Below are positions 1,213 through 25,474 of a stretch of DNA of 64,000 nucleotides, in pieces. The position numbers and the translations under genes are program-made. Position 1 is the first letter of the stretch. Each line of letters starts with the position of its first letter. Below the pieces are notes generated by a model that saw only the letters and a program-made list of their open reading frames with translations, was not told the origin of the DNA and did no database searches. Location: the NCBI RefSeq assembly GCF_000262465.1, contig NZ_CM001489.1:1337781-1401780 (forward strand), in the 5' to 3' direction. Source of the DNA: Frankia sp. QA3 (lineage in GTDB: Bacteria > Actinomycetota > Actinomycetes > Frankiales > Frankiaceae).

Positions 1213-2880
1213 ATGCGAGGCACGACGCTGCCCGGCGCGCTCGACGAGGCGGCCGCGACCAGACCCGATGTCGCCGTGAGCTTCCCCAGCTCGTCCGAAC
1301 GGCTCACCATGGTCGAGCTTGCCGACGCGACGACCGCGCTCGCCCGGGCCCTGGTCGCCGCGGGGGTGGCACCCGGCGAGCGGGTCGGCGTGTTCAGCCG
1401 GAACAACGCCGACTTCGTGACCGCGGTCATCGGGGTGACCCGGGCCGGCGCCGCGGCCTGCCCGCTGCCGCTGCCGACCTCGGCGGGCGACCTCGCCGGC
1501 TACGCTGCCCGGATCGCGGCCGTGACGAGCGCGGCCGGCGTCGAGCGCGTGCTCGTCGGGGCGGGGGCGGACGGCGTCGCGCGGCGGCTCGGCCCGGTGC
1601 TGCCCGCACTGCGCTTCGACCGCATCGCCGAGCTCACCCGGACGGCCCGCGACGGCGTGGCACTGCCCGCCGTGACGCCGTCCGACATCGCCATCGTCCA
1701 GTTCACCTCGGGCAGCACCGCCGTGCCCAAGGGCGTCGTGCTGACCCACCGCAACGTCGTGCACGGCACCGCGGCGATCGTCGACGGCATCGGGCTGGCC
1801 GACGGCGATCACGGGGCCACCTGGCTGCCGCTCTACCACGACATGGGCCTGTTCGGCGCGCTCAGCGCGATCCTCGTCGGGGTGCCGATGACGATCTGGT
1901 CGCCCTCGACGTTCATCAAGGACCCGGCGTCCTGGCTGCGGTCGTTCGCCGCGCTCGGCTGCTCCATCCTCCCCTCGCCGAACTTCGGCTACGACGCCCT
2001 GCTCGCGGCGGTCGGACCGGACGAGGCCGCGGGCCTGGACCTGCGCCGCTGGCGGGTCGCGCTCAACGGCGCGGAACCGGTCAGTCCGATCACGGTGGAA
2101 CGCTTCGGCGCGCGCTTCGCCCCGGCCGGGTTCGTCCCCGAGGTGATGTTCCCCGTCTACGGGATGGCCGAGGCGACCCTCGCCGTGACGTTCCCGCCGC
2201 TGGGCCGCCCGCCGGTGACGACCTGGGTCGACCGCGACCGGCTCGCCCGCGACGGCGTAGCGGTGCCGGCGCCCGCGGGCGATGCCGGTTCCCGGGGCCT
2301 GGTCGGCCTCGGCCGCCCGGTGCGGGGGATGCGGCTGCGGGTCGTCGACGAGCAGCGCCGCAGCGTGCCCGACGGGACCGTCGGGGAGATCGAGATCTCC
2401 GGCGACGCGGTCACCGCCGGCTACCTGACGGCGGGCGGCGCGTCCGGTTCACCCGTCCCCGCCCCCGCCGCCCCCGCCCCCGCCGCGCAGTGGCTCGCGA
2501 CCGGCGATCTCGGCTTCCAGGTCGCCGGCGAGCTTCACGTGAGCGGACGGCGCAAGGAAATGATCATCATTCGGGGGGTCAACTACTACCCCGAGGACGC
2601 GGAGGCTCTCGTCCGCGACGCGCCGGGGGTGCACCGACGCCGGTGCGTGGCGGTCGCCGACGTCGACGACGCGGGCACCGAATCCATGACGGTGATCGCC
2701 GAGACCACCCTGGACGGCGCCGCAGACCGGGTGCGGCTGGCCGCCGATCTGCGGGTCGCCGTCGGATCCGCGCTCGGGCTGGCCGAGGTGTCGGTGCGCC
2801 TGGTCGCCCCCGACGCCCTCCCGCGGACCTCGAGCGGGAAGTTCCGCCGCGTCGAGGCCCGCGGCCTCGCCCGCCAGTGA
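1213..2880 (+). CDS. Fatty acyl-AMP ligase (FAAL-like adenylating enzyme)
   Basis: A 555-residue member of the ANL adenylate-forming superfamily, most like fatty acyl-AMP ligases, which activate free fatty acids with ATP and load them on an acyl carrier protein rather than on CoA. The phosphate-binding motif TSGSTAVPKG is at about residues 165-174, the FAAL-typical LPLYHDMGL at about 205-213, YGMAEAT near 316, and the C-terminal SSGK lysine is K543. The ATG at 1213 is preceded by a GGGAGAG box; the longer GTG ORF start at 1120 adds atypical sequence. It heads the operon and has an acyl carrier protein four genes downstream at 4260, its probable partner. FAAL rather than CoA ligase is inferred from motif resemblance, not proven. 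Confidence 0.85.
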   Translation: MRGTTLPGALDEAAATRPDVAVSFPSSSERLTMVELADATTALARALVAAGVAPGERVGVFSRNNADFVTAVIGVTRAGAAACPLPLPTSAGDLAGYAARIAAVTSAAGVERVLVGAGADGVARRLGPVLPALRFDRIAELTRTARDGVALPAVTPSDIAIVQFTSGSTAVPKGVVLTHRNVVHGTAAIVDGIGLADGDHGATWLPLYHDMGLFGALSAILVGVPMTIWSPSTFIKDPASWLRSFAALGCSILPSPNFGYDALLAAVGPDEAAGLDLRRWRVALNGAEPVSPITVERFGARFAPAGFVPEVMFPVYGMAEATLAVTFPPLGRPPVTTWVDRDRLARDGVAVPAPAGDAGSRGLVGLGRPVRGMRLRVVDEQRRSVPDGTVGEIEISGDAVTAGYLTAGGASGSPVPAPAAPAPAAQWLATGDLGFQVAGELHVSGRRKEMIIIRGVNYYPEDAEALVRDAPGVHRRRCVAVADVDDAGTESMTVIAETTLDGAADRVRLAADLRVAVGSALGLAEVSVRLVAPDALPRTSSGKFRRVEARGLARQ

Positions 2881-2909
2881 TCCCCGCCAGTGATCCCCGC
2901 CAGTGATCC
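2871..2909 (+). repeat. 13-bp perfect tandem repeat across the stop codon
   Basis: Three perfect copies of CCGCCAGTGATCC start in the last codons of the FAAL gene and continue past its TGA (2878-2880). Each copy repeats the stop codon. The Shine-Dalgarno box of the next gene (GGAGG, 2915-2919) follows immediately, so the array sets the gap between the two genes. Confidence 0.95.
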
Positions 2910-2929
2910 CCGACGGAGGTAGGCCCGAC

Positions 2930-3715
2930 ATGCACGGCTACGACGTCTTCCGCCACTACGAGCAGAAGCGCTGGACCCTCGCCGATCTGCCGTTCGACGA
3001 CATCGACCGCGACCGCGTGCGGCCCGAGTACGTCACGATGGTCAAGAGCTCCGTGATGGGGGAGGCCAACTCGATCGCCGCCCAGCACGGCTTCCTCAAC
3101 GAGTTCGACGACTACGACTTCTCGACCTTCGTCGCCGTCTGGGGCTACGAGGAGCTGCAGCACCACTTCGCGTTCCGGACCTGGCTGGACGCGGTCGGCG
3201 TGGAGATGCCCACCGCGCCCGTCGAGGCGATGCGCGAGCCGTACGCCCCCGGCACCACGCCGAGCGCGACGCTCGCCACGAACATCATCTCCGAGCTGAC
3301 GGTGAACCACGTCTACCGCTCCGTGGCAGCCTGGGTCGACGAGCCGGTCCTGCGCTCGCTGATGCTGCGCGCCAGCCGGGACGAGGCCGGCCACGCCCGC
3401 GAGTTCCTGCACTACGCGCGCCGGCGCCTGGAGGCGCACCCCGACGAGCTGCCCTCGGTGCTGGAGACGCTGTACGTGTACACCTCGGAGTCGAGGATCA
3501 AGCATCCGGTCGGGGTGTTCAAGAGCGGGCTGGCCGAGGTCGCCAACCACGAGACCATCGACACCGCGTTCGACATGTTCCTCGCGGGCATCGCCACCGA
3601 GGGCGAGCTCGACCGGCTCCAGGACAACATCCGCCGGGCCTTCGCCGCGCTCACCGGGCTGGACCTGAGCACCAACGGCCGCGTCCGCCGGCGTCTCGCC
3701 GAGGCGCTGGCGTGA
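2930..3715 (+). CDS. Soluble ferritin-like diiron protein, acyl-ACP desaturase type
   Basis: A 261-residue, all-helical ferritin-like protein with the spaced carboxylate and histidine ligands of the stearoyl-ACP desaturase family: E45, the EExxH motif E74-E75-H78, E122, and D151-E152-H155. Such enzymes use a diiron centre and oxygen to desaturate or hydroxylate acyl chains bound to ACP; related proteins oxidise other carrier-bound substrates. The ATG at 2930 has a GGAGG box eleven bases upstream and is preferred to a GTG at 2903 that lies inside the tandem repeat. It sits between the FAAL and a carrier protein and overlaps the next gene by four bases (GTGA). The actual oxidation is unknown; desaturase, hydroxylase or N-oxygenase are all possible. 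Confidence 0.75.
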   Translation: MHGYDVFRHYEQKRWTLADLPFDDIDRDRVRPEYVTMVKSSVMGEANSIAAQHGFLNEFDDYDFSTFVAVWGYEELQHHFAFRTWLDAVGVEMPTAPVEAMREPYAPGTTPSATLATNIISELTVNHVYRSVAAWVDEPVLRSLMLRASRDEAGHAREFLHYARRRLEAHPDELPSVLETLYVYTSESRIKHPVGVFKSGLAEVANHETIDTAFDMFLAGIATEGELDRLQDNIRRAFAALTGLDLSTNGRVRRRLAEALA

Positions 3716-4263
3716 GCGCCCCGGAGCTGCCCTGGGCGGTCCTGGCGGACTACCGCTGCTTCGGCTGCTCGCCGCACAACCCGCACGGGATCGGGCTCGA
3801 GTTCGACGAGCACCCCGAGGGCCTGCAGACCACCTTCGACCTCGGCCGCAGCTACGAGTCGTACCCGGGGGTCGTCCACGGCGGGCTGCTCGGCGTCGTC
3901 TGCGACGAGACGATGGGCAACCTCATCGTCGTGCGCACCGGGCTGGTGGCCTTCACCGTCAGCATGCGGATGCGCTACCTCACCCCGGTCGCCACCGGGC
4001 GCAGCTACACGTGCCTGGCCCGCCTCGGCGCCGGCGCGGACGCCGGCTCGCCCCTGATCAGCGCGACCGCGGAGATCATCGATGCCGACGGCGTCGGAGT
4101 CGTGACCGCGTCCGCGACCTACCGCAACGTCCCCTTCGGCACCGCCCGGGAACGCATCGCCCTGACCAGTCCCGAGGCCGACCGACTCCACCAGGCGCTG
4201 TCCACCACTCCGGCGCTGTCCACCACCGCGGACGGCCCCGCCACAGTTGAGGAGACCCTGTGA
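3712..4263 (+). CDS. Hotdog-fold thioesterase (PaaI-like)
   Basis: A 183-residue hotdog protein with the family hallmark V-V-H-G-G (about residues 60-65) followed by a helix ending in CDETMGN. Near the N terminus a cluster CFGCSPHNPHG (about residues 16-26) matches a motif common in hotdog proteins of acyl-CoA/ACP metabolism. It starts at a GTG that overlaps the stop of the diiron gene by GTGA and ends in a second GTGA overlap with the carrier protein, so the three genes are translationally coupled. A role in releasing or editing acyl groups on the adjacent ACP is inferred. Residues 165-183 are a low-complexity tail with a short STTPAL duplication. Confidence 0.75.
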   Translation: MSAPELPWAVLADYRCFGCSPHNPHGIGLEFDEHPEGLQTTFDLGRSYESYPGVVHGGLLGVVCDETMGNLIVVRTGLVAFTVSMRMRYLTPVATGRSYTCLARLGAGADAGSPLISATAEIIDADGVGVVTASATYRNVPFGTARERIALTSPEADRLHQALSTTPALSTTADGPATVEETL

Positions 4264-4520
4264 CCACCGCCGCCGACGGCATCCTCCGGCAGATCACCGA
4301 GATCGTCGCCCGGGAGCTCGCCGTGCCCGCCGAGTCCCTCGCCGCCGACACCGACCTGCGCGCCGTCGAGGGCGCCGACTCCGTCCGGCTGCTGCGGGTC
4401 GTCGCCAAGGTCGAGCAGACCTGGGACGTCGAGCTCGACGACTCCGACGTCTTCACCGTCTCCTCCGTCGCGGAGCTGGCCGCGGTCGTCCGCGAGGCGT
4501 TGCAGGTGAAGGCGGCATGA
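4260..4520 (+). CDS. Free-standing acyl carrier protein
   Basis: An 86-residue acidic protein with the four-helix carrier-protein pattern. The phosphopantetheine attachment serine is S41 in the motif GADSVRLL at the start of helix 2. It is probably the acceptor for the acyl-adenylate made by the FAAL at 1213 and the carrier on which the two diiron enzymes, the methyltransferase and the P450 act. It overlaps the upstream gene by GTGA and the downstream gene by ATGA. It is separate from the ACP domain inside the megasynthase at 12591, so this locus has two carrier systems. Confidence 0.9.
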   Translation: MTTAADGILRQITEIVARELAVPAESLAADTDLRAVEGADSVRLLRVVAKVEQTWDVELDDSDVFTVSSVAELAAVVREALQVKAA

Positions 4521-5365
4521 CCACCGTCACGGACCCGCGGGCGGGCGAGACCAACCAGCACTACGACCTCGATCCGGAGATCTTCGGGCTGTTCCTCGAC
4601 CCGCTGCGCAAGTACTCCTCCGGGCTCTACCGGCGCCCCGGCCTCACCCTCGCCGAGGCGCAGGTCGCCAAGCTGCACTTCGTCGCCGACCGGCTCCGGC
4701 TGGCCCCCGGGCAGCGGCTGCTCGACGTCGGCTGCGGCTGGGGGTCGCTGATCCTGTTCATGGCGCGGGAGTACCGCGCCGAGGTGACCGGGGTCAGCCC
4801 GGCCGGGCGCCAGCACGAGTTCATCGCCGGGAGGGCCGCCGAGCTGGGCCTGACCGATCTCGTCTCCACCCGCGTCGGCAGGTTCGAAGACGTCGAGCTC
4901 CCGGTGCGCTCGTTCGACGCGGTCACCATGCTCGGGTCGATCGTCCACATGCCCGACGTCGACCTGGCGGTGCGCCGCGCCCGGAGCATGCTGCGCCGCG
5001 GCGGCCACTTCTACGTGTCGGAGAGCTGCTTTCGCAACGCCGCGGCGCGCGAGGAGTTCGACCGCCGCGCCGGCACCGAGTTCGTGCGCAACTCGATCTT
5101 CGGCTGGGGTGACATGCGGCCGCTGTCGGAGCTGGTGCGCGCGGTCGAGGACGCCGGCTTCTCGGTGACGAGCGTCGACGACCTCACCGACGACTACCGC
5201 CGCACGATCGACGACTGGCTGGCACGCGTCGCCGCCGGCGCGGCCGCCATCGACGAGCTGCGCCCGGGCACGTCGGCGGAGCTCACCCGCTACCTGGAGG
5301 TCGCCAACGCCGGGTGGGGCTTCACGACCAAGCACTACGCGCTGGTCTGCCGCAACGCCCGCTGA
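4517..5365 (+). CDS. SAM-dependent methyltransferase, cyclopropane-fatty-acid-synthase family
   Basis: A 282-residue class I methyltransferase. The SAM-binding motif LLDVGCGWGSL is at residues 68-78 and the region before it (NQHYDLDPEIFGLFL, residues 13-27) resembles the N-terminal helix of CFA and mycolic-acid methyl transferases, which add a methylene or methyl group across cis double bonds of lipid chains. Placement directly after an ACP and between two desaturase-type genes suggests that it modifies an unsaturated acyl-ACP. The ATG overlaps the ACP stop by ATGA. Length is close to mycolic-acid methyltransferases and shorter than E. coli Cfa. A different small-molecule acceptor cannot be excluded. 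Confidence 0.75.
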   Translation: MTTVTDPRAGETNQHYDLDPEIFGLFLDPLRKYSSGLYRRPGLTLAEAQVAKLHFVADRLRLAPGQRLLDVGCGWGSLILFMAREYRAEVTGVSPAGRQHEFIAGRAAELGLTDLVSTRVGRFEDVELPVRSFDAVTMLGSIVHMPDVDLAVRRARSMLRRGGHFYVSESCFRNAAAREEFDRRAGTEFVRNSIFGWGDMRPLSELVRAVEDAGFSVTSVDDLTDDYRRTIDDWLARVAAGAAAIDELRPGTSAELTRYLEVANAGWGFTTKHYALVCRNAR

Positions 5366-5402
5366 CCGGCGCCCGCGCGCCGCCGCCCGTCCCGGAGGAC
5401 AG

Positions 5403-6389
5403 ATGACAACCACGACCGGTCCGCACCCGACGACCCCCGCGCAACCCCGCGAACCCGTGGCCGGGGGGCGGGGAGAGATCCCGGCCCGGTCGGTCGGACT
5501 GCCCGCCGAGGACCTCGACCGGGCGGTCACCGCCTTCATGACCGCCTCCCCGGTGACCCGCCGGTGGGACGTCGAGACCGGCTTCGACTGGGCGGCGGCC
5601 GACGCCGACCGGCTCACCGAGGGCCAGCGTTCCGCCGTCCGGTTCATCACGTTCATCGAGGATCACCTGCCGGGCTACTTCGCCCTCTACGGCAGCCGGT
5701 TCCCGCTCGACGGCGACGTCGACGTCGAGACGTTCCTGCTCAACCGCGAGATCTACCACTTCACGGTGCGCTGGGCGCAGGAGGAGGACAGCCACGCCCG
5801 CGCCCTGTTCCGCTACCAGGTGGAGTCGGGCATCGCGCAACCGGCGGCGCTGCGCCGCGAACTCGCCGAGGAGGGGCGCAAGCAGTTCGCGCTGCCGCAC
5901 GAGCACCCGGCCGCGCTGTTCGCCTACACGCTCGTGCAGGAGAAGGCGACCCAGATCTACTACCAGAACCTGCGGGCCGTCGTCGGCGACCCGGTGCTCG
6001 CCGAGGTCCTGGGCCGGCTCAGCCGCGACGAGGCCCGCCACTTCACCTTCATGGCCGACATGGTCGACCTCTACCTGCGCCGGTACGGCGACGCCGTCGT
6101 CGAGCCGATCCGCGACGCCGTGGCGCAGTTCCGGATGCCGCTGGCCGACACGCTGCGCGGCTACTGGCGCTGGGCGCTGCGGATCGCCGACACCGCCCAC
6201 TACGACCACACCGAGGCCTACGAGCATCTCGTCCGGGTCGTGCGCCGCGCGGTGGACGCGCCGTCCGACCGCGTCGACGAACTGGCCAGGTTCGTGCGCG
6301 CCTGCCGCGCGACGGACCCGGCCCCCACTCCGGTCGCCCCCCATTCCAGGAGCCAACCGTGGACCTCACCGTCGACCAGGCGGCCCTGA
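5403..6389 (+). CDS. Second diiron acyl-ACP desaturase-like protein
   Basis: A 328-residue protein of the plant-type stearoyl-ACP desaturase family. Diiron ligands can be read in order: E86 (FIEDH), E127/E128 and H131 (QEEDSH), E180 (VQEK), and D209-E210-H213 (SRDEARH). It should use reduced ferredoxin and oxygen to introduce a double bond in an ACP-bound chain. A GGAGGA box lies just upstream of the ATG. The first 35 residues are Pro/Thr-rich and not conserved in the fold. The 3' end overlaps the P450 gene by 31 bp in another frame, so the last ten residues may be a read-through tail. It is only distantly similar to the diiron protein at 2930, so the pair is not a recent duplication. Confidence 0.8.
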   Translation: MTTTTGPHPTTPAQPREPVAGGRGEIPARSVGLPAEDLDRAVTAFMTASPVTRRWDVETGFDWAAADADRLTEGQRSAVRFITFIEDHLPGYFALYGSRFPLDGDVDVETFLLNREIYHFTVRWAQEEDSHARALFRYQVESGIAQPAALRRELAEEGRKQFALPHEHPAALFAYTLVQEKATQIYYQNLRAVVGDPVLAEVLGRLSRDEARHFTFMADMVDLYLRRYGDAVVEPIRDAVAQFRMPLADTLRGYWRWALRIADTAHYDHTEAYEHLVRVVRRAVDAPSDRVDELARFVRACRATDPAPTPVAPHSRSQPWTSPSTRRP

Positions 6390-7573
6390 ACATCTTCGAC
6401 CCCGCCTGGCATCACGACACCTTCCCCAACTACCAGGTTCTGCGCGAGGCCGGTCCGTTCGCGCCCGGCCCGCTGGGCCTGCGCCTGGTGACCCGCTACC
6501 GGGAGGTCGACACGATCCTGCAGGACTCGGCGTGGAGCCATGCCGAGGAAGGCACGATCATGCATCCCGACAGCGACGGATCGGACCTGCCGACGTCGTT
6601 TCTGTGGATGGAGCCCCCGGATCACACCCGGATCCGCCGGCTGGTCGGCAAGGCGTTCAGCGCGCGGCGGATCGAGGGGCTGCGCGCGCGGGTCACCGAG
6701 GTCGCGGGCGGGCTCGTCGACGCGGCGATCGCCGCGGGCGAGGTCGATCTGGTCGAGGCGATCGCCTACCCGCTGCCGCTGACGATGATCGCCGAGCTGA
6801 TGGGCGTGCCGGCGTCCGACCACGCGGCGGTGCGGTCGATGTCCTTCGGACTCGCCCGCGGCCTGGACCCCGACATCCTGCTGTCCCAGGCCGAGATCGA
6901 CCACCGGCGCAGCTCGGCCGCGGCGTTCCGGGAGTACTTCACCGATCTCGTCGCCCGCCGGCGCGCCGACCCGGCCGACGACCTCGTCAGCGCGCTGGCC
7001 CTGGCGGAGGCCGAGGGCGATCGGCTGACGAACGACGAGATGCTCGCGACCCTGGTGGTGCTGCTCGTCGCCGGGCACGAGACGACCGTCAGCCTGATCT
7101 CCAGCACGTTCCTGATGCTGATGCGCAACCCCGACCAGTACGCGGCGCTGCAGGCGAACCCGGACCTGGCTTCGCCGGCCGTGGACGAGCTGATGCGCTA
7201 CTGCACCCCCTCGCACCTCACGACCCGGGTCGCCACCCGCGACGTCGAGGTGCACGGCGAGCCGTTCGCCGCGGGCGACGGGGTGATCATCCTGCTCGCG
7301 TCGGCGAACCGCGACGCCGATCTCTACGCCGACCCCGAGCGGCTCGACCTCACCCGGTACGCGGGCAGCGGCGCAGTGCCCCGCCATCTCGCCTTCGGCC
7401 GAGGGCATCACTACTGCATCGGCGCGCCGATGGTGCGCCTGGAGATGGAACTGCTGCTGCGGACGTTGGCGAGACGCGCGCCCCGCCTGACGCCGCTGGT
7501 CGACCCCCCGCCCTACCGTCCCAACCTCGTCGTGCGTGGGATCGCCGAACTCCCGGTCCGGATCGTCGGCTGA
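6359..7573 (+). CDS. Cytochrome P450 monooxygenase
   Basis: A 404-residue soluble bacterial P450. The oxygen-activating I-helix AGHETT is at about residues 239-244, the K-helix ExxR reads ELMR at about 278, and the heme ligand is C353 in the motif FGRGHHYCIG. The GTG start at 6359 has an AGGAG box eight bases upstream that lies inside the 3' end of the diiron gene. It closes the front operon, so hydroxylation or epoxidation of the ACP-bound or released lipid is a reasonable inference. No ferredoxin gene is next to it; the reductase with a fused [2Fe-2S] domain at 36502 is the only candidate electron donor in view. Confidence 0.9.
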   Translation: MDLTVDQAALNIFDPAWHHDTFPNYQVLREAGPFAPGPLGLRLVTRYREVDTILQDSAWSHAEEGTIMHPDSDGSDLPTSFLWMEPPDHTRIRRLVGKAFSARRIEGLRARVTEVAGGLVDAAIAAGEVDLVEAIAYPLPLTMIAELMGVPASDHAAVRSMSFGLARGLDPDILLSQAEIDHRRSSAAAFREYFTDLVARRRADPADDLVSALALAEAEGDRLTNDEMLATLVVLLVAGHETTVSLISSTFLMLMRNPDQYAALQANPDLASPAVDELMRYCTPSHLTTRVATRDVEVHGEPFAAGDGVIILLASANRDADLYADPERLDLTRYAGSGAVPRHLAFGRGHHYCIGAPMVRLEMELLLRTLARRAPRLTPLVDPPPYRPNLVVRGIAELPVRIVG

Positions 7574-7719: not shown

Positions 7720-8661
7720 ATGGAGTTGCGGCACCTGGTGTCTTTCCTTGCTATCGCGGACGAACTGCATTTCGGCCGCGCTGCCGCTCGGCTACATCTC
7801 TCGCAGCCATCCCTGAGCCAACAACTACAACGACTGGAACGCAGCCTCGGCGTCGAGCTGGTCGCGCGGACGTCGCACGATGTCCGGCTCACCGCGGCCG
7901 GAAAGGCGTTCGAGGCCGAGGCGCGAGCCATCATCTCACAGATGCGCAAGGCCACCCACACCGCCCGCGAGGTCGCGGCCGGCCGAACCGGGGTGGTGAG
8001 CGTCGGGTACAACTTCCCCGGCGGCCAGCACGTCGTTCCGGCCGCGCTCACGAAAATGTCGGCCGAATATCCCGACGTGAGCGTCACGCTGGTGGAGCAG
8101 CGCACCGGTCCGCAGCTTTCCGCGCTGGCCGCCGGCGATCTCGACGTCGCGATCGTCTACGGCCGTCCGACCTCGCCGGAGTTTCAGTCCCGGCGACTGT
8201 TCCGGGTGCCTCTCGTCGCGGTCGTCGGCCACGGGCACACGTGGGCGGGTCGCGGCGGCATCCCCTTCGGGGAACTCGCCCGCCAGCAGTGCGTCCTGTT
8301 CGCCCGGGAGAAGAGCCCGGCGATGTACGACGCGATCCAGGCGGCCGCCGAGGCCAGCGGCATCACCCTGTCGGTCGCCCACGAGGTGGACGACCCGAGC
8401 GCGACCGCGATCGTCGTCTCGGTGAAACCGCTGGTCGGATTCGCCTCGGTGTCGCGTGGCCTGCACATCGGCTCCGCGGTCGGGGGCCCGCGGCCGTGCG
8501 CCGTCCAGCTTTACGACCCGGTCCCCACCCTGGATCTCTACGTCGTCTGGCGGGCGGCGAACTCGGCGCCACTGGTGGATATCTTCGTCGACTGTATCGA
8601 GGCGGCCCGGCCGTTCCAGGTTCCAGCCTACGGCCGGGCCGAATCAAGAGTGAGGCGATAG
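7720..8661 (+). CDS. LysR-family transcriptional regulator
   Basis: A 313-residue LysR regulator. The winged helix-turn-helix occupies residues 1-60 (MELRHLVSFLAIADELHFG, then LHLSQPSLSQQLQRLE), followed by the linker helix and a periplasmic-binding-protein-like effector domain from about 88. The ATG at 7720 has GGAGG at 7710-7714; the GTG at 7708 is less well placed. LysR proteins often control adjacent genes, so control of the flanking lipid operons is likely. Unusually for LysR, its gene is co-directional and lies between the two blocks rather than divergent from one target. The 146-bp gap upstream is where its own promoter should be. Confidence 0.9.
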   Translation: MELRHLVSFLAIADELHFGRAAARLHLSQPSLSQQLQRLERSLGVELVARTSHDVRLTAAGKAFEAEARAIISQMRKATHTAREVAAGRTGVVSVGYNFPGGQHVVPAALTKMSAEYPDVSVTLVEQRTGPQLSALAAGDLDVAIVYGRPTSPEFQSRRLFRVPLVAVVGHGHTWAGRGGIPFGELARQQCVLFAREKSPAMYDAIQAAAEASGITLSVAHEVDDPSATAIVVSVKPLVGFASVSRGLHIGSAVGGPRPCAVQLYDPVPTLDLYVVWRAANSAPLVDIFVDCIEAARPFQVPAYGRAESRVRR

Positions 8662-8795
8662 AAAAGTCTGACCGTTCATTCCAGGAAAGCGCCTTGCCGG
8701 GTTCCCGGAATAATCCGAGACTCGGGCGTGAAAAGGTCTGACGCACTTCACCGTGCGGAGGGCCGCGTCCGCGCTACGCGGAAAGGTGATGACAC

Positions 8796-10502
8796 GTGCA
8801 GAAATCCACCTCGGCCGGCGGCACCGCCCTGCCGGACGACCAGGGGATCTGGTCCGTGGTCGAAGGCGGCGCCCAGGCGCACCCCGAGCGGCCCCTGCTG
8901 GGCCGCACCGACATCCCCGGCGAGGCGATCCGCGAGATCAGCAGCGGTGAGTTCGCCGAGCAGGCCCGGACGGTGGCGGCCGAGCTGCTCGCCCTCGGGG
9001 TCGGCCACGGCGACCGGGTCGCCGTCATGGGGCGCACCGGCTACCCCTGGGCGCTGCTGAGCGTCGCCGCCCTCGGCGTCGGCGCGGTGATCGTCCCCGT
9101 GTACCCCACGGCGTCGGCGGTGCAGGTCCGCCACGTCCTGACCGACTCCGGCGCCGCCTGGGCGTTCGCCGAGACCGACGAGCAGGTGCGGCAGGTCAGC
9201 GAGGCCGGCGCCGCCGGGCTGCGCCGCCCGGCCTGGAACCTGGGACAGGTCGACGAGTGGGTGGCCGCGGCGGGAGGCCCGACCGACCCCGGCGCGCGGC
9301 GGGCCGCACTCGACGAGGAGTTCGCCCAGCGCGCCGGCAAGGTCCGGGCCGACGACCTGGCAATGATCATTTACACCAGTGGCACGACGGGCCTGCCGAA
9401 GGGGTGCATGCTCACCCACCGCAACATGTTCGCCTCCTCGGTGGGCACCGTGGAGCAGACCGGCGATCTGTTCGGCACCGCCGAGGACGGCACGCAGGCC
9501 ACCACGGCGCTGTGCCTGCCGCTGTCGCACGTGTTCGGGCAGACGATCCTGTTCGCCTGCCTGCACGCCGGGACGCGCACCATCCTGCTCCCCGGGGTGC
9601 CCGAGCTGCTGCCCGCGATGCCGGTGATCCGCCCGACGTTCCTGGCCCTCGTGCCGTACGCGCTGGAGAAGATCCGCAAGCGGGTGCGGGACCTGCCGGA
9701 CGACGCCATCGCCGCGGCGTTCGGCGCTCGGCTGACCCAGGTGATCTGCGGCGGTGCCTCGCTCGACGACACGACCGCGGCGTTCTTCGCCGGCGCCGGC
9801 GTCAACGTCCTGAACTGCTACGGCCTGACCGAGGCCGCCACCGCGGTCACGGTGAACGCCCCGGCCACCAACCGGCGTGGGACCGTCGGACGGCCGATTC
9901 CCGGGACGACGGTCGCGATCGCCGACGACGGGGAGGTGCTCGTCCAGGGCGCCAACGTCTCGCCCGGCTACTGGTCGGCCGGCGAACGCGCCGTCGGCCG
10001 CGACGCCACCGGTCCCGGCGAGGATCGCTGGCTGTACACCGGCGACGTCGGCCACCTCGACCCCGACGGCTACCTGGTCATCACCGGGCGCCGCAAGGAG
10101 ATCCTGGTGACGAGCGGCGGCAAGAACGTCGCGCCCACGCCGTTGGAGGACCGGGTGCGGCTGCATCGGCTGGTCAGCAACTGCATGGTCGTCGGAGAGG
10201 CCCGCTCGTTCGTCTCGGCCCTGATCACCCTGGACCAGGCCGCCTTCCCCGGCTGGGCCGCGGCGAACGGCGTCCGCCTCTCCGCGCCCGACTGGTGGGA
10301 GCACCCTCGGCTGCTCGCCGAGCTCCAGCTCGCCGTGGACGACGCCAACAGCCTCGTCTCCCGCGCCGAGTCGATCCGGAAGTTCCGCGTGCTCGACACC
10401 GACTTCACGGTCGAAAATGGACATCTCACGCCTTCAATGAAACTTCGCCGTTCGATCATCGAGCGGGATTTCACCGAGGCGATCGCATTTCTTTACCAGT
10501 GA
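8796..10502 (+). CDS. Long-chain acyl-CoA ligase (FadD15-like)
   Basis: A 568-residue ANL enzyme that activates long-chain fatty acids with ATP and CoA. The motif IIYTSGTTGLPKG is at about residues 190-202, NCYGLTEAATAV near 343-354, the YTGDVGHLD hinge near 413 and the C-terminal TPSMKLRR with its lysine at about 549. The overall pattern is the long-chain acyl-CoA synthetase branch, distinct from the FAAL-like ligase at 1213. The GTG start has an AAAGGTG box nine bases upstream. It could import a fatty-acid starter into the megasynthase pathway or recycle products. The 134-bp gap upstream contains two near-copies of GAAAAGTCTGAC, at about 8661 and 8729. Confidence 0.9.
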   Translation: MQKSTSAGGTALPDDQGIWSVVEGGAQAHPERPLLGRTDIPGEAIREISSGEFAEQARTVAAELLALGVGHGDRVAVMGRTGYPWALLSVAALGVGAVIVPVYPTASAVQVRHVLTDSGAAWAFAETDEQVRQVSEAGAAGLRRPAWNLGQVDEWVAAAGGPTDPGARRAALDEEFAQRAGKVRADDLAMIIYTSGTTGLPKGCMLTHRNMFASSVGTVEQTGDLFGTAEDGTQATTALCLPLSHVFGQTILFACLHAGTRTILLPGVPELLPAMPVIRPTFLALVPYALEKIRKRVRDLPDDAIAAAFGARLTQVICGGASLDDTTAAFFAGAGVNVLNCYGLTEAATAVTVNAPATNRRGTVGRPIPGTTVAIADDGEVLVQGANVSPGYWSAGERAVGRDATGPGEDRWLYTGDVGHLDPDGYLVITGRRKEILVTSGGKNVAPTPLEDRVRLHRLVSNCMVVGEARSFVSALITLDQAAFPGWAAANGVRLSAPDWWEHPRLLAELQLAVDDANSLVSRAESIRKFRVLDTDFTVENGHLTPSMKLRRSIIERDFTEAIAFLYQ

Positions 10503-10615
10503 TCCGTGCCACTCGATTGCCGGCACTTATCGGCCGATGAGATGTAGACCGGTCCGTTGACCGACGAACTTCCTGATCAGCACCATGACACGGTAGCCGG
10601 CCCGAACGCTGCGCT

Positions 10616-10638
10616 GCCGGCCGCCGCCGGCGGCCGGC
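10616..10638 (+). other. GC-rich 10-bp perfect hairpin before the flavoprotein gene
   Basis: GCCGGCCGCC (10616-10625) and GGCGGCCGGC (10629-10638) form a perfect stem with a three-base loop, ending eleven bases before the GGGAGG box of the gene at 10663. It has no T tract. It may stabilise the downstream message or attenuate read-through from the ligase gene. The rest of the 160-bp gap holds no recognisable gene. Confidence 0.6.
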
Positions 10639-12590: not shown

Positions 12591-15500
12591 GTGACCAAGC
12601 CAGCGCTCCCCCCGAGCCCGTCCGAGCCCGACGGTTTCGACGACCGGCGGCTCGCCCGGACCCCGATCGCGATCGTGGGCATGTCGGGCCTGTTCCCGAT
12701 GGCCCGCAACCACCGCGAGTACTGGCAGAACGTCGTCGACGGCGTCGACTGCACGACCGAGGTGCCGCCCTCGCGGTGGGACCTGGACGACTACTACGAC
12801 AGCGATCCCACCTCGCCGGACAAGACCTACTCGCGGCGCGGCGCCTTCATCCCGGACGTCGAGTTCAGCCCGCTGGAGTTCGGCCTGCCGCCGAACCAGC
12901 TCGAGGTCACCAGCACGATGCAGACCCTGAGCCTCGGCGTCGCCCGTGACGTGCTGCGCGACGCGGGCGCCCGCGACGCCGCGGGCGCGGCCGCGGACTG
13001 GTACGACTCGGCGCGCACCGGCGTCGTGCTGGGCACGACCGGCCCGGTCCCGCTCATGCATCCGCTCGCCGCCCGGCTGTCCACGCCGGTGCTGCGCGAG
13101 GCGGTGCGCAGCTGCGGGCTGAGCGAGGCCGATGCCGACGCGATCAGCCGCAAGTACGTGGAAGCCTTCGCGCCGTGGGAGGAGAACTCCTTCCCTGGCC
13201 TGCTCGCGAACGTGGTGGCCGGCCGGGTCGCCAACCGGCTCGGCCTCGGTGGGATGAACACCACCGTCGACGCGGCCTGCGCGGCGTCGCTGTCCGCGGT
13301 CCGCCTCGCCGTGGCGGAGCTGGTCGACGGCCGGGCCGACACGATGATCACCGGTGGCGTCGACACCGAGAACACGATCTTCATCTACCTGTGCTTCTCG
13401 AAGGTCCAGGCGCTGTCCAAGAGCGGCACGATCAGCCCTTTCTCCGACGACGCCGACGGCACCCTGCTCGGCGAGGGCATCGGCATGCTGGCGCTGCGCC
13501 GGCTCGCCGACGCCCGCCGCGACGGCAACCGCATCTACGCCGTGATCCGCGGGATCGGCTCGTCCAGCGACGGCCGGTCCAAGAGCATCTACGCCCCCCG
13601 CGCCGAGGGGCAGCGGGTGGCGCTGGAACGCGCCTACCACGACGCCGACTGCTCTCCGGCGTCGGTGGAGCTGTTCGAGGCCCACGCCACCGGCACGGCG
13701 GTCGGCGACCGCACGGAGCTCACCGCGCTCGGCGGCCTGCTGCGCGACGCCGGCGACGAGCGCAACTACGCGGCGCTGGGCAGCGTGAAGTCCCAGATCG
13801 GCCACACCAAGGGCGCCGCCGGCACGGCCAGCCTGATGAAGCTCGCCCTCGGCCTCTACCACAAGGTCCTGCCACCGACGATCAACGTCGAGCGGCCCAA
13901 CAGCGCCGTCGACTTCACCGACGCTCCCTTCTACGTCAACGTCGCGAACCGGCCGTGGATCCGCGACCCGCACCGGCCGGTGCGCCGCGCCGCCGCGTCC
14001 GCGATGGGCTTCGGCGGGACGAACTTCCACGTGGTCCTCGAGGAGGACTCGGGCGACCGGTCGGCGGTGCGCGCGCTGCACCGCACCGCTCGCGCGCACC
14101 TGTGGCACGCCCCGGACGCTCCCGCGCTGCTGGAGCTGCTGCGCGCGGGCGCGCCGAGCGTCGACGGGCCGATCCCGGTCGACGCGGCCCGGGTCGGCTT
14201 CGTCGCCCCGGACGACGACGCCGTGGACGAGCTGCGCGAGATCGCGATCTCCCAGCTCGAACGGTCCCCGGACGCGGCCGAGTGGTCGCACCCCCGCGGC
14301 ATCCACTTCCGCCGCGCCGCCCGGGAGAACATCACCGTCGCCGGGCTGTTCGCCGGGCAGGGCAGCCAGTACCTCGACATGGGCCTCGACGCCGCGCTCG
14401 GCGTCCCGCCGGTCGGCGCCGCCTTCGACGAGGCCAACGCCGCGTTCGACGGCGCCGAGCGGCGGCTCGCGCCGATTGTCTTCCCGCCGCCGGTGTTCGA
14501 GGCGGCGCTGCGCCAGGAGCAGGAGGTGGCCCTGCGCGCCACCGAACACGCCCAGCCGGCGATCGGCGCGCTGTCCGTCGGCCAGTTCCGCTACCTGCGC
14601 GAGCTCGGCCTGCGCTGCGCGGGCTACCTGGGCCACAGCTTCGGCGAGCTGACCGCGCTGCACGCCGCCGGCGCGCTCGACGCGGCGGGATTCTTCCGCC
14701 TCGCCCGCGAACGTGGCCTGGCCATGGCGCCGCCCGCGGGCGACGCCGGCGCCGACCGGGGCACCATGGCCGCCGTCCCCGCGGACCGCGACCGGGTCGC
14801 GGCGATGCTGACCGAGCACCCCGACCTGGTCATCTGCAACCACAACGCCCCCGAGCAGGTCGTCGTCGGCGGTCCCGCGGACGCGGTCGCCGCGTTCGTC
14901 CGCCGCTGCGCCGAGCAGGGACTCGACGCCCGCCCGCTGCCGGTGTCCGCCGCCTTCCACACCCGCTACGTCGCGCACGCCGTCGACCGGTTCACCGCGG
15001 CCCTCGCCTCGGTCCCCGTCACCGAACCGGCCGTGCCGGTCTACCCGAACACCCGCGGCGCGAGCTACGGCCCGGACAGCGCCGCCAACGCCGCCGTGCT
15101 TGCCCGCCAGCTCCTCGAGCCGGTCGAGTTCGTCGACGCGGTCCGCGCCGCCCACGCCGCCGGCTGCGACATCTTCGTCGAGTTCGGCCCGAAGCAGGTG
15201 CTGACCCGGCTCGTCCGCCAGATCCTCCCCGACGCCGACGTCGTGACGGTCCCCACCGACGCCGGCCCTCTCGGCAACTCCGACGTCGCCCTGAAGCAGG
15301 CCGCCGTCCAGCTCGCCGTGCTCGGCGTGGATCTGTCCGGCCTCAACCGCTACCAGGCCGACCCGTTCGAGGCGATCCCCGCCAAGGGCCCGACGGTGAC
15401 CCTGTCCGCGCCCGAGTACACCCCGCCCGCGCGCCGGGCGGCCTACGCCGCGGCTCTCGACGACGGCTACCGCATCACCGCCGCGGGTGCCCCCGCCGCG

Positions 15501-18500
15501 CCCGCCCTGCCCGCCCCCCGGGCCGAGCTCACGTCCGAGGTGACCACGGTGGAATACGTCCCTACCGGCGCGACCGGCGCCGAGGTGAACGGCGTTGGCG
15601 TGGCCGGCGCTGGCGTGAACGGTGCCGGCGCGAACGGTGCCGGCGCGCACCACAGCCTGACCGGCGCCGCCCTGCTCGAGCACGCACCCGTGAACGGCGC
15701 CGGAGTCAACGGCGCCGGAGTCAACGGCGCCGGTACCAATCGCGCGGGCCGCAACGGCGCCGGGCACCTGCCCGAGGCGGTGGCCGCCCATCACCCGGGG
15801 CCCCTCTCGGCCGGCGGGGCAGCCGGTCTGCCCGCCGGCGCGGACATCCTCGCCCAACAGGTCAACCTGCACGCCGTCTACTTGGAAAGCCAGCTCGACG
15901 TGGCCAACCGCCTGGTCGGCGCGCTGCAGGAGTACCAGCGCCGCGGCCAGACCGACGAGCGGTTCACCGACGCGGTCGCCACCGTGGCCGGCCAGAGCAT
16001 CGCCATCGGCCAGACCCACACCCGTGCCAACGAGGTGCTCGCTCAGCTTGCCGCGCTCGAACTGGCAACGGCCGACCCCGGCGCCCCGACGCTGGCCGGC
16101 GGACCCCGACCGACCCTGCCGGGGTCCTTCGGGTCGGCGCCGGCCGCTCCCCGCGAGCTTCCGCCGACCCCGACCCCGACCCCGACCCCGGCCCCGACCA
16201 CCCTCCCGGCCCAGCTTCCGATACCGGCCCAGCCGACCACGCCGGACGCCCCCGCCCCCGGCGCCGGCGTTGGCGCCGGTGTCCTTGATCGTGAGGCGGT
16301 GCGGGGTGCGTTGGTCGAGGTGGTGGCGGAGAAGACGGGTTATGCGGCGGACATGATCGATACCGGGATGGATCTGGAGGCGGATCTCGGGGTCGATTCG
16401 ATCAAGCGGGTGCAGGTGTTGGGGGCGTTGCGGGAGCGGTTCCCGCAGTCGCCGACGGTGGGTCCGGAGCAGCTCGCGGAGCTGCGGACGTTGGATCAGA
16501 TCGCCGACTTCGTCGCCGCCGCGCCGCCCGGATCATCCGGATCACCGGCCGGGTTCGGCGGCCCGGAGGCAGGTGGTGTCGACCCAAAAGCCGGTGAGCC
16601 GGCCGGGGCGCCGCGCCGGACCGTCCGGCTGGTGACCCTGCCCGGAGTCGACCGGCTCGACCGCCCGTACGCCGAGTCGCCGGTGGCCGTCGTCGTCCAT
16701 CGCGGCGACCCGGGTGCGGGACCGATTCTCGACGGCCTGCGGACGCGGGGGTGGACCGTGCGGGAGGCCGACCTCGCCGCCGCCACGCCCGGCGGCCCGG
16801 CCGTGCCGACCTCCGACGACGTCGAGCGGGCCCTGGCCGCCGCGTTCGAGGGGAGGACAGACCTCGCCCTGACGGTCCTGACCCCGCGCGCCGACCGGGA
16901 CCGCGCCGACCGGGACCGCGCCGACCGGGACCGCGCCGACCGGGACCGCGCCGACCGGGATCATGGCGGCTGGGACCACTCCGTGGCCGTGCTCGCGGAG
17001 ACCGTCCTGGTCGCCCGACACGCCCACCTGTCGTTGTCGGCGACCGCCGCGGGCGGCTCCCGCGCCGCGTTCGTCACCATCACCCGCCTCGACGGCGGGC
17101 TGGGGCACCATGGCACGGCCGGCGCGGCGGCGTCCCTGCTCGGCGGGGTCGGCGGGGTCGTCAAGACGCTCGCCGCCGAGACTCCGGAGTTGTTCTGCCG
17201 GGCCGTCGACCTCGCGCCGGGCCTCGCCGGGGAGACCGTCGCCGAGCTGCTCGACGCCGAGCTCCACGACGTCGCCCGAGACACCCCCGAGGTGGGCATC
17301 GACGCCGCCTCGGTGCGCCGGACCGTCGTCCCCGGCCTGTTCGACCCCCTCGCGGCGGCCGACCCGGCCGACCCGGCCGGCACGACCCCCGGTGACGCCG
17401 CCTCCGACGGCGCTGCGGCGGCGGTCACCATCGGTGCGGACGACGTCCTCGTCGTCTCCGGTGGGGCGCGCGGCGTCACGGCGCTGTGCGTGCGCGCCCT
17501 CGCCGAGCGCGCCGCCGCCCGCTTCGTGCTGCTCGGCCGGTCGGCCCTGGCCGACGAGCCCGACTGGGCCGCCGGCGTCGCCGACGACGACCTCAAGACC
17601 GTGGTGATCGACCGACTGCGGGCCGAGGGCACCCGTCCCACCCCCCGCGAGGTGGAACGCATCTACCAGGGGCTGCTGGCCCAGCGCGAGATCCGCGCGA
17701 CGGTGGCGGCGATCGCCGCCGCCGGCGGGCGCGCCGAGTACGTGGCGGTCGACGTGACCGACGCCGGCGCCCTGCGCGCCGCGCTCGGCGGGGTGCGCGG
17801 GCAGGTCACCGGGGTCGTGCACGGCGCGGGGGTGCTCGCCGACGCGCTGCTGCCCGCCAAGACCGCCGCGGACGTGGCCCGGGTGTTCGCACCGAAGCTG
17901 ACCGGGCTGCGCGCGCTGCTCGACGCCCTGGACGGCGCCCCGCTGCGCCACCTGATCCTGTTCACCTCCGTCGCCGGGCTGTACGGCAACCTCGGCCAGG
18001 CCGACTACGCCGCCGCCAACGAGGCCCTGTGCCGGGTCGCCGCGGCGATGAAGCACGACCGTCCCGACTGGCACGTCACCGCCATCGACTGGGGCGCCTG
18101 GGACGGCGGCATGGTGACCCCCGCCCTGCGGGAGCTGTTCCAGGCGCGCGGCGTCGAACTGCTGCCCCCCGACGCGGGCGCCCGCGCCTTCGCCGAGGCG
18201 TTCCGGCCCGACCGCGCCGACGAGGTGTGCGTCCTCGTCGGGCCGGGCCGCTCCCTGGCGGAACCGACTGCGGCCGGCGGGCCGGCCGTGCGTGCCCGCC
18301 GGCCGCTCAGCCCGATCGTCGACCATCCCGTGATCGCCGCCCACCGGATCGGGGCTCACCGGGTGCTGCCGGCGACGTTCGGCCTCGGCTGGATGATCAA
18401 CGTCGTCGAACGGTCCCACCCGGGCCGCCGCGTCGTCGAGGTCCGCGACTTCGCGGTGCACAAGGGCATCGTCTTCGACGGCGCGTCGCCCGACGGCGCG

Positions 18501-19211
18501 CGGGTCGAGGCCGAGCCCGCTGTCCCGGGCGAGGCGGGCCGGCTGCTGGTCCGCGTCGCGGTCCGCGCCGACGGCTCCGGCCGGCTGCCCGTGTCGCACT
18601 ACGCGGCGACGTTCCTGCTTGCCGCCACCGAACCGGATCCGGCGCGACCCGGCCCGGCGCTGCCCGGCTGGCCCGGCTACCGGCTGGGGGAGGGGCCGCC
18701 CGACGCCCTGGACCTCTACACCGAGGGCACCCAGTTCCACGCCCCGCGCCTGCAGGGCATGCGCCGGGTGCTGGCGCGGACCGGCGACCGGCTGGTCCTC
18801 GAATGCCAGCTCGACGACGACCAGGACCTGCGCGCCGCGTTCGGCGGGGCGCTGCACAGCCCGGTCCTCGCCGACGTGCTCCTGCAGGGGCCGCCGGTGC
18901 TCGGCAAGGCCCTGCTCGGCCAGGCCTGCCTGCCGCTGGGCATCGGCCGCGCCGAGTACTTCCACCCCCTGCCCGACGCCGCGCCGTTCGTCCTCGTGCT
19001 GGACCGGGCGCGCGTGGACGACGGCGGCGGCACGGCGACCGTCAGCGCGACCGCCTGCACCCCGGACGGCGCCGTCCTGGTGCGGTTCACCGATGTCATG
19101 GTCGCCGCCACGGCCGGCATGGCGGCGAAGTTCGCCGAGGCCGTCCAGGCCTGGCGGCAGCCCCTCACCGAGAACAGCACCTCGACCGAGAACGAGGACG
19201 TCCAGTCATGA
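12591..19211 (+). CDS. PfaA-like multidomain secondary-lipid synthase (KS-AT-ACP-KR-DH)
   Basis: A 2206-residue iterative type I synthase resembling PfaA of polyunsaturated fatty acid synthases. Ketosynthase (about 20-480) has the catalytic triad C230 (DAACAAS), H365 (EAHATGT) and H405 (SQIGHTKGA). Acyltransferase (about 580-890) has S683 (GHSFGE) and H790. A linker rich in NGAG repeats (about 995-1060) precedes one ACP with S1270 in LGVDSIKRVQ, the PUFA-synthase-type signature. A ketoreductase has SGGARGV near 1622 and Y1806. A C-terminal hotdog dehydratase-like region (about 1900-2200) has H1912. Marine PfaA proteins usually carry four to nine tandem ACPs; here there is one. The GTG start has AAGGGAA upstream. 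It overlaps the next gene by ATGA. The ACP segment uses different codons from its surroundings (see findings). The product cannot be predicted. Confidence 0.9.
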   Translation: MTKPALPPSPSEPDGFDDRRLARTPIAIVGMSGLFPMARNHREYWQNVVDGVDCTTEVPPSRWDLDDYYDSDPTSPDKTYSRRGAFIPDVEFSPLEFGLPPNQLEVTSTMQTLSLGVARDVLRDAGARDAAGAAADWYDSARTGVVLGTTGPVPLMHPLAARLSTPVLREAVRSCGLSEADADAISRKYVEAFAPWEENSFPGLLANVVAGRVANRLGLGGMNTTVDAACAASLSAVRLAVAELVDGRADTMITGGVDTENTIFIYLCFSKVQALSKSGTISPFSDDADGTLLGEGIGMLALRRLADARRDGNRIYAVIRGIGSSSDGRSKSIYAPRAEGQRVALERAYHDADCSPASVELFEAHATGTAVGDRTELTALGGLLRDAGDERNYAALGSVKSQIGHTKGAAGTASLMKLALGLYHKVLPPTINVERPNSAVDFTDAPFYVNVANRPWIRDPHRPVRRAAASAMGFGGTNFHVVLEEDSGDRSAVRALHRTARAHLWHAPDAPALLELLRAGAPSVDGPIPVDAARVGFVAPDDDAVDELREIAISQLERSPDAAEWSHPRGIHFRRAARENITVAGLFAGQGSQYLDMGLDAALGVPPVGAAFDEANAAFDGAERRLAPIVFPPPVFEAALRQEQEVALRATEHAQPAIGALSVGQFRYLRELGLRCAGYLGHSFGELTALHAAGALDAAGFFRLARERGLAMAPPAGDAGADRGTMAAVPADRDRVAAMLTEHPDLVICNHNAPEQVVVGGPADAVAAFVRRCAEQGLDARPLPVSAAFHTRYVAHAVDRFTAALASVPVTEPAVPVYPNTRGASYGPDSAANAAVLARQLLEPVEFVDAVRAAHAAGCDIFVEFGPKQVLTRLVRQILPDADVVTVPTDAGPLGNSDVALKQAAVQLAVLGVDLSGLNRYQADPFEAIPAKGPTVTLSAPEYTPPARRAAYAAALDDGYRITAAGAPAAPALPAPRAELTSEVTTVEYVPTGATGAEVNGVGVAGAGVNGAGANGAGAHHSLTGAALLEHAPVNGAGVNGAGVNGAGTNRAGRNGAGHLPEAVAAHHPGPLSAGGAAGLPAGADILAQQVNLHAVYLESQLDVANRLVGALQEYQRRGQTDERFTDAVATVAGQSIAIGQTHTRANEVLAQLAALELATADPGAPTLAGGPRPTLPGSFGSAPAAPRELPPTPTPTPTPAPTTLPAQLPIPAQPTTPDAPAPGAGVGAGVLDREAVRGALVEVVAEKTGYAADMIDTGMDLEADLGVDSIKRVQVLGALRERFPQSPTVGPEQLAELRTLDQIADFVAAAPPGSSGSPAGFGGPEAGGVDPKAGEPAGAPRRTVRLVTLPGVDRLDRPYAESPVAVVVHRGDPGAGPILDGLRTRGWTVREADLAAATPGGPAVPTSDDVERALAAAFEGRTDLALTVLTPRADRDRADRDRADRDRADRDRADRDHGGWDHSVAVLAETVLVARHAHLSLSATAAGGSRAAFVTITRLDGGLGHHGTAGAAASLLGGVGGVVKTLAAETPELFCRAVDLAPGLAGETVAELLDAELHDVARDTPEVGIDAASVRRTVVPGLFDPLAAADPADPAGTTPGDAASDGAAAAVTIGADDVLVVSGGARGVTALCVRALAERAAARFVLLGRSALADEPDWAAGVADDDLKTVVIDRLRAEGTRPTPREVERIYQGLLAQREIRATVAAIAAAGGRAEYVAVDVTDAGALRAALGGVRGQVTGVVHGAGVLADALLPAKTAADVARVFAPKLTGLRALLDALDGAPLRHLILFTSVAGLYGNLGQADYAAANEALCRVAAAMKHDRPDWHVTAIDWGAWDGGMVTPALRELFQARGVELLPPDAGARAFAEAFRPDRADEVCVLVGPGRSLAEPTAAGGPAVRARRPLSPIVDHPVIAAHRIGAHRVLPATFGLGWMINVVERSHPGRRVVEVRDFAVHKGIVFDGASPDGARVEAEPAVPGEAGRLLVRVAVRADGSGRLPVSHYAATFLLAATEPDPARPGPALPGWPGYRLGEGPPDALDLYTEGTQFHAPRLQGMRRVLARTGDRLVLECQLDDDQDLRAAFGGALHSPVLADVLLQGPPVLGKALLGQACLPLGIGRAEYFHPLPDAAPFVLVLDRARVDDGGGTATVSATACTPDGAVLVRFTDVMVAATAGMAAKFAEAVQAWRQPLTENSTSTENEDVQS
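15594..15765 (+). repeat. NGAG-type repeats in the AT-ACP linker of the synthase
   Basis: Two clusters (about 15594-15648 and 15690-15765) encode reiterated (V/A)NGAG units, partly on a 15-bp period. The encoded linker of some sixty residues is flexible and uncharged and separates the acyltransferase from the ACP. Further upstream and downstream the linker is rich in Pro and Thr, with a 6-bp repeat near 16170-16195. Confidence 0.8.
16890..16961 (+). repeat. 15-bp in-frame tandem repeat (ADRDR) in the synthase
   Basis: Four perfect copies of GCCGACCGGGACCGC plus a partial fifth lie between the ACP and ketoreductase domains and encode a highly charged ADRDR repeat of about 24 residues. It lies in a poorly conserved N-terminal subdomain of the ketoreductase. 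Confidence 0.95.
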
Positions 19212-24842: not shown

Positions 24843-25474
24843 CGACCGACTCGACGGCAATCGACCAGGTGACGGGAACGACCGGGGACGTCGACCCGGA
24901 CGGCGGCGAGCGCCGCGTGCCCGCACCGGCCGTGGACGCCGTGGTCGCGGTGCTCGGCGCGCACGTGCTGGAGCTGTCCGTGCGGGCACGGGTCGCGCCC
25001 AGCCACGTCCGCGTGTCGGCCGGCGATGTCAGCGTCGAGATGGGCTGGACGAGCGCCGGCCCGGGGTTCGCGGAAGCACCGGTCGCGCCCGCGCGGACCC
25101 GCTGGGCCGCGCCCACCGCCCCCGTGGCCCCGGCAGCACCCGCGGCGGTGCCCGCCGCCCCGGCCGCGGCTGCGCAGCCCAGTGAGCTGGCGGCGCCCGA
25201 GGAAACCGGGACGTTCCCGCTGGTCTCTCCGTCCGTAGGCATGTTCTACCGGGCGCCCGAGCCCGGGAAGGCGCCGTTCGTCGCCGAGGGCGACACGGTC
25301 CGCGCCGGGCAGCAGGTCGCGATCGTCGAGGCGATGAAGCTGATGATCCCGATCGAGGCGGAGCTTCCCGGGCGGGTCGTGCGGATCCTCGTCGAGGACG
25401 CCACCGCCATCGAGCACGCCCAGCCGCTGTTCCTGCTCGCGCCGCTGGACCAGGCCCCGAACGGGAGCCGTTGA
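24839..25474 (+). CDS. accB: Biotin carboxyl carrier protein of acetyl-CoA carboxylase
   Basis: A 211-residue BCCP. The biotinyl domain occupies about residues 130-205 and the biotinylated lysine is K167 in VEAMKLM, the canonical motif. The family thumb region is present ([19 protein letters not shown], about 131-149). A Pro/Ala-rich linker (about 80-125) joins it to a short N-terminal domain. It overlaps the upstream gene by ATGA and the downstream biotin carboxylase by one base (TGATG). No biotin protein ligase gene is in the window, so it must be biotinylated by a ligase encoded elsewhere. Confidence 0.93.

Follow-up and report, generated by a model that had tools for sequence, protein, structure and literature searches.

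A seven-gene FAAL–diiron–methyltransferase block in Frankia that probably encodes a self-contained acyl-ACP tailoring cassette

The gene block and its diiron proteins

The window analysed here is a stretch of 64,000 nucleotides corresponding to positions 1,337,781–1,401,780 of a 7.59-Mb single-contig Frankia genome. On its plus strand, positions 1213–7573 are occupied by seven genes in the order fatty acyl-AMP ligase (FAAL), diiron protein 1 (diiron1), hotdog thioesterase (TE), acyl carrier protein (ACP), CFA-superfamily methyltransferase (MT), diiron protein 2 (diiron2) and cytochrome P450 (Table 1). An earlier note on this DNA had described the same set, and all seven genes were indeed recovered at these positions and on this strand, with families assigned by Pfam/NCBIfam except for diiron1, which has no Pfam match. 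The diiron1/TE, TE/ACP and ACP/MT junctions are 4-bp overlaps, MT and diiron2 are separated by a gap of 37 bp, and diiron2 and the P450 gene overlap by 31 bp. As most adjacent genes overlap, the block reads as a single operon. A separate 4HBT thioesterase gene lies just upstream of the FAAL gene in divergent orientation (window 128–682, minus strand); the N-terminus of its product contains repeats of the type EATEHIEITKHI.

Table 1. Genes of the block and of its downstream neighbourhood (positions in the window)
Feature	Position	Strand	Start, size or profile match
Fatty acyl-AMP ligase (FAAL)	1213..2880	+	ATG 1213, GGGAG upstream; PF00501 6e-62
Diiron protein 1 (ferritin-like, SAD fold, family-specific)	2930..3715	+	ATG 2930; 261 aa; no Pfam match
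Hotdog (4HBT/PaaI-like) thioesterase (TE)	3712..4263	+	PF03061 2.7e-4
Dedicated acyl carrier protein (ACP)	4260..4520	+	PF00550 6e-14; GADS Ser
CFA-superfamily SAM methyltransferase (MT)	4517..5365	+	PF02353 9e-44
Diiron protein 2 (acyl-ACP desaturase family)	5403..6389	+	PF03405 6e-15
Cytochrome P450	6359..7573	+	GTG start at 6359; PF00067 7e-30
LysR-type regulator, between block and synthase	7726..8661	+	PF03466/PF00126
Long-chain acyl-CoA ligase-like (FadD11-like), neighbour	8796..10502	+	PF00501 5e-71
Pfa-type iterative lipid synthase: PfaA-like, PfaC-like (FabA), PfaD	12591..23061	+	TIGR02813, TIGR02814, PF07977
Acetyl-CoA carboxylase-type trio (carboxyltransferase, BCCP, biotin carboxylase)	23058..26844	+	PF03255/PF01039, PF00364, PF02785/PF02786

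The best NCBIfam models for the ligase are fatty acyl-AMP ligases. Its alignment with solved FAALs, which are also its top PDB matches, covers the full length, and that with E. coli FAAL 3pbk is gapless through the stretch after YGMAE, the site of the FAAL-specific insertion.

Both diiron proteins combine the six carboxylate/His diiron ligands of the SAD/R2 class with a predicted four-helix bundle. Diiron2 scores 55 bits against PF03405 (curated cut-off 22.7 bits), and its ligands E86, E128, H131, E180, E210 and H213 are invariant in 14 of 14 sequences. Plant acyl-ACP desaturases are the best Foldseek matches of its predicted fold, the model itself being weak, with a mean pLDDT of 66 and an unreliable stretch of 80 residues at the C-terminus. 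Diiron1 belongs to no Pfam family and does not reach the curated cut-off of PF03405; by profile, it matches the acyl-ACP desaturase DesA2 with an E-value of 2e-4, and hhalign comparison of the diiron1 and diiron2 profiles returned a probability of 94 (E 1.6e-7). Its ligands E47, E77, H80, E124, E154 and H157 (numbered from 2924) are invariant as well (17/17 sequences). The AF2 model (pLDDT 89) finds castor stearoyl-ACP desaturase as best Foldseek match (E 7e-5, TM 0.69). Judged by its profile, diiron1 is a distant paralogue of diiron2, and it could act as a hydroxylase or another oxygenase rather than as a desaturase. Plant stearoyl-ACP desaturase and mycobacterial DesA2 share the ligand set, the fold and profile matches with the block proteins, but are only 14–20% identical to them, and the block proteins would act on the ACP of the block. 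The earlier note had proposed a FAAL and a dedicated ACP combined with soluble diiron enzymes that resemble acyl-ACP desaturases and replace the membrane desaturases; this is supported by the full-length FAAL match, the complete ligand sets and the matching predicted folds.

In a tree of diiron1 sequences, three groups separate, some deep nodes being poorly supported: the main block copies, small diiron1-(TE)-ACP loci together with the CcI3 copy, and the Streptomyces copies. Such small paralogous loci, consisting of a diiron1-like gene and an ACP gene and sometimes a thioesterase gene, occur in most Frankiaceae (L051, L052, L056, L059, L084–L094, L102). The genome of the window has a diiron1-like copy of this kind with an in-frame TGA (G000:C1:6185146-6185934). 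Plasmid-borne diiron1 relatives from Burkholderiales (28–32% identity) were considered as well, but no comparable block surrounds them, and only one FAAL-like gene was found (L162). A distant relative of diiron1 on a Methylibium plasmid follows a gene annotated as iron-containing redox enzyme and a crotonase gene (L163:8297-10849).

Distribution of the block and its association with a Pfa synthase

The synteny search that the earlier note had suggested for the seven-gene block retrieved the gene set from at least 20 Frankiaceae loci and six Streptomyces loci, with identities down to 36–53%. Given this recurrence, the block is not a chance cluster. The core FAAL-diiron1-ACP-MT-diiron2 is present in Frankia, Parafrankia, Protofrankia and Pseudofrankia, and diiron1 matches were obtained in 31 of the 35 genomes of the order, some of them representing the small paralogue or fragments only. 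The TE keeps its position in most relatives of the block and P450 copies range from zero to four per block; neither TE nor P450 was detected in the Protofrankia-type blocks (L075–L077, L101). Outside Frankiaceae, the block was seen only in the six Streptomyces when GTDB 220 was scanned (one genome per species) with peptide patterns, which may miss divergent copies, and a diiron1 profile search of 396 phylum-wide genomes yielded one marginal match besides the genome of the window. Five of the six Streptomyces carry P450-FAAL-diiron1-TE-ACP-MT-diiron2 in a single run, and in Streptomyces AJS327 the P450 gene is located ~2 kb upstream of the FAAL gene. Two of the Streptomyces loci, L096 and L098, were gone through one gene at a time (with Pfam on L098); in both, an Sfp-type PPTase gene follows diiron2, and no PKS was seen in these two stretches. 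A literature search returned no description of such a FAAL-diiron cassette.

In most Frankia, Parafrankia and Protofrankia genomes the block adjoins a Pfa synthase. The models for PfaA (TIGR02813, 1449 bits) and PfaD (TIGR02814, 632 bits) are both above cut-off in the window, where genes for an FAD monooxygenase and a GDSL hydrolase lie between the FadD11-like ligase and the synthase on the same strand. The LysR gene is close to the block in Frankia, Parafrankia and two further genomes (G003, G027). A Type M secondary-lipid synthase has been described in each of the three Frankia genomes finished at the time (Shulse and Allen, PMC3098273), and the synthase of the window is probably of this type.

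This proximity bears on the suggestion of the earlier note that the block makes a starter for the synthase. According to this reading, the Frankia cassette would provide a starter, or a side chain, which the adjacent Pfa-type synthase extends. Indeed, PfaD is found 18–39 kb from diiron1 on the same contig in nine genomes (G000, G001, G006, G016–G019, G023, G027), PfaA follows within ~10 kb in all Frankia-type loci (L061–L069), and all genes from FAAL to biotin carboxylase share one strand in the window. However, the block occurs apart from a Pfa synthase in Streptomyces and in two relatives, which we take to be EuI1c-like (G028) and DC12-like (G031), and in a presumably CcI3-like genome (G003) PfaD is 1.19 Mb away. 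Moreover, the orientation of the block relative to the synthase varies between genera, and the block usually has a thioesterase of its own. No PfaD match at E ≤ 1e-30 was found in four block-bearing genomes (G028, G029, G031, G033), of which G028 and G031 are single contigs. An obligate role as Pfa starter is thereby ruled out as a general rule, and since such genomes exist, the block works without the synthase in some lineages. What stands of the suggestion is the neighbourhood: coupling is plausible in those Frankia, Parafrankia and Protofrankia genomes where block and synthase adjoin, and the synthase is a possible partner in the lineage of the window only. As an account of what the cassette is for in Frankia, we regard supply of a Pfa starter as possible but rather doubtful. 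A second PfaD gene is present in G001, which we take to be ACN14a-like. In G028, genes for an SDR, a sulfotransferase, a BioF/serine palmitoyltransferase-like enzyme and a carboxylic acid reductase take the place of the synthase after the block (L046:9615-16770), as might be expected if the acyl group were handed to different partners.

In a 2023 phyloprofile (PMC10252897), 108 genes are retained by symbiotic strains but missing from the two non-infective strains CN3 and DC12; they include FRAAL3189 (LysR), FRAAL3191, FRAAL3194, FRAAL3195 and FRAAL3196. By coordinates, these five are orthologues of the LysR, FAD monooxygenase, PfaC-like, PfaD and carboxyltransferase genes of the window (7726–24842). 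The block genes were not found in the parts of that list examined. A symbiosis-specific block is not supported, as it is present in G028, G031 and Streptomyces. The main texts of the F. alni nodule and desiccation proteomes (PMC8951365, PMC5768760) do not mention FRAAL318x/319x.

Related pathways and the bicarbonate site of the methyltransferase

In the jamaicamide (JamA/B/C) and polyyne clusters, a FAAL charges a dedicated ACP with a fatty acid and a desaturase acts on the acyl-ACP (PMC11837247). The block resembles these cassettes in its FAAL, dedicated ACP and desaturase design, but has two soluble diiron proteins in place of the membrane desaturase and, in addition, a CFA-like MT and a P450; moreover, its Streptomyces copies have no PKS/NRPS in the sequence examined. 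The earlier note had drawn a parallel to polyyne and terminal-alkyne pathways, and it holds for the architecture alone. Neither a membrane desaturase nor an acetylenase was identified among the block genes. An alkyne or polyyne cassette, in which the diiron enzymes would serve as successive desaturases and acetylenases, is therefore unlikely: although the FAAL-ACP-desaturase-TE arrangement parallels JamA/B/C-type and polyyne clusters (PMC11837247), membrane enzymes of either kind are absent among the seven genes, and a methyltransferase is foreign to such cassettes. The same functional list can be built from other parts, as shown by an intact FAAL-ACP-desaturase-CFA synthase-P450-hotdog locus with a type I PKS in G001 (L118, G001:C1:3728000-3747900, FRAAL3447–3454). 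This locus resembles the block in uniting FAAL, ACP, desaturase, CFA synthase, P450 and hotdog protein in one operon-like arrangement. However, its desaturase is a membrane protein, its type I PKS is large, and its CFA synthase retains the YSC and FEH motifs, the two methyltransferases being 26% identical; thus, desaturase and MT are of other types. Bacterial polyyne clusters are not known to contain soluble SAD-type acetylenases. In the genome of the window, the desaturase, P450, FAAL and hotdog genes of an L118-type locus match only in pieces, as if decaying (L161, G000:C1:1660000-1679900).

A role in fatty-acid housekeeping or detoxification, with the FAAL acting as a CoA ligase and the block feeding degradation or membrane modification, appears slightly less probable still: the FadD11-like ligase and acyl-CoA-type thioesterases are nearby, but the FAAL-type sequence, the dedicated ACP, the PPTase in the two Streptomyces loci examined and the narrow, patchy distribution all speak against it.

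The MT has the PF02353 fold (150 bits) with the SAM motif DVGCGWG. In E. coli CFA synthase, bicarbonate is bound by Glu239, His266 and Tyr317 (PMC11387697), and the residues of this site are described as essential for cyclopropanation (PMC9821293, PMC11387697). In the MT of the window, the Glu and His ligands are replaced by V143 and S168, while the Tyr is kept (Y227). A set of 30 block MTs, 24 from Frankiaceae and six from Streptomyces (the window copy being included twice), was compared with other CMAS of the class and of Frankia. All 30 have Val or Ile in place of the Glu ligand and Ser in place of the His ligand, and all retain the Tyr; most also carry Ser or Ala at the Cys of the CFA-synthase YSC motif. 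In the CMAS used for comparison, the Glu position shows an E-H motif and the Tyr is conserved, while the His position is unreadable in some because of gaps in the alignment, and not all of these sequences have a His there. As the block MTs thus form a subfamily without two of the three bicarbonate-ligand residues, a cyclopropane is unlikely, and the cyclopropane product envisaged in the earlier note is not upheld. Formation of a cyclopropane fatty acid on the ACP, in line with PF02353 membership and with CFA/CMA synthases as the best structural relatives, is disfavoured by the invariant replacements at ligands described as essential (PMC9821293, PMC11387697), which leaves it the least probable of the alternatives considered. 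While the loss of the ligands is observed, a methyl branch, a C-alpha-methyl or an O-methyl group remain as the outcomes that we infer.

Two systems illustrate such outcomes. PDB entry 7v6h, which we take to be AmxMT1, is matched by the block MT profile with an E-value of 2e-12. AmxMT1 from anammox is a CFA-like methyltransferase without the bicarbonate site and is thought to act on an ACP-bound substrate (PMC9821293). It differs from the block MT in belonging to the anammox type II FAS cluster and in its proposed beta-ketoacyl substrate; AmxMT1 also has a His-Glu dyad. In the furan fatty acid pathway UfaM-UfaD-UfaO, a fatty-acyl SAM methylase together with desaturation and oxygenation yields methyl-branched rather than cyclopropane chains (PMC7380195). 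The block would likewise pair a SAM methylase with desaturation and oxygenation, but the Ufa enzymes work on phospholipid acyl chains, employ neither FAAL nor ACP, and include other oxidative enzymes.

A proposed acyl-ACP tailoring route

Taken together, we consider it probable that the block is a self-contained acyl-ACP tailoring cassette. It is regarded as self-contained because the six Streptomyces carry the core and the P450, accompanied by a PPTase and lacking a PKS in the two loci examined. Going by family, the FAAL would adenylate a free fatty acid and transfer the acyl group to the dedicated ACP. The two soluble diiron enzymes, as distant paralogues of stearoyl-ACP desaturase, may then act on the chain held by the ACP, desaturating and/or hydroxylating it with the help of O2 and a general ferredoxin, as their complete ligand sets and folds suggest. 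The MT would methylate the activated chain, generating a methyl branch as UfaM does, a C-alpha methyl group of the kind suggested for AmxMT1, or an O-methyl group, but presumably no cyclopropane, since two of the three bicarbonate ligands are missing. One or more P450s may oxidise the product further. Finally, the hotdog thioesterase would free the acid, or a partner would take over the acyl-ACP; the neighbouring genes point to the Pfa synthase in most Frankia and possibly to an alpha-oxoamine synthase with a carboxylic acid reductase in Pseudofrankia. As Protofrankia blocks have no detected TE or P450, release cannot always be by the TE. The product is most likely an acyl group that is oxidised or unsaturated and carries a methyl group rather than a cyclopropane; it would be released by the TE or passed to a partner enzyme.

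A more specific version of this tailoring cassette is speculative and has a small chance of being correct. In this scheme, oxidation and methylation would be coupled on the ACP: an alkene or alcohol produced by the family-specific diiron enzyme would be methylated by the base-less CFA-type enzyme, and the resulting cation quenched by water, hydride loss or an internal oxygen to give a methyl-branched alcohol, a diene or a furan/ether ring, which in Frankia would prime the Pfa synthase for a lipid linked to symbiotic life.

In this reading, the block is a variant of the FAAL-ACP tailoring systems, from which it differs by its soluble diiron pair and its altered CFA-like MT, and it represents a compact, portable gene set for acyl-ACP tailoring. 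Its parts include a CFA-like MT subfamily in which two of the three bicarbonate-site residues are lost, and a diiron family without a Pfam entry. Genetics in Frankia is hard; the compact Streptomyces versions, which run from P450 to diiron2 and include a PPTase in the two examined, make the product testable by heterologous expression. Knowledge of the product would help to test whether a Frankia lipid matters for symbiosis, genes of the adjacent Pfa cluster being on the published symbiotic-strain list (PMC10252897).
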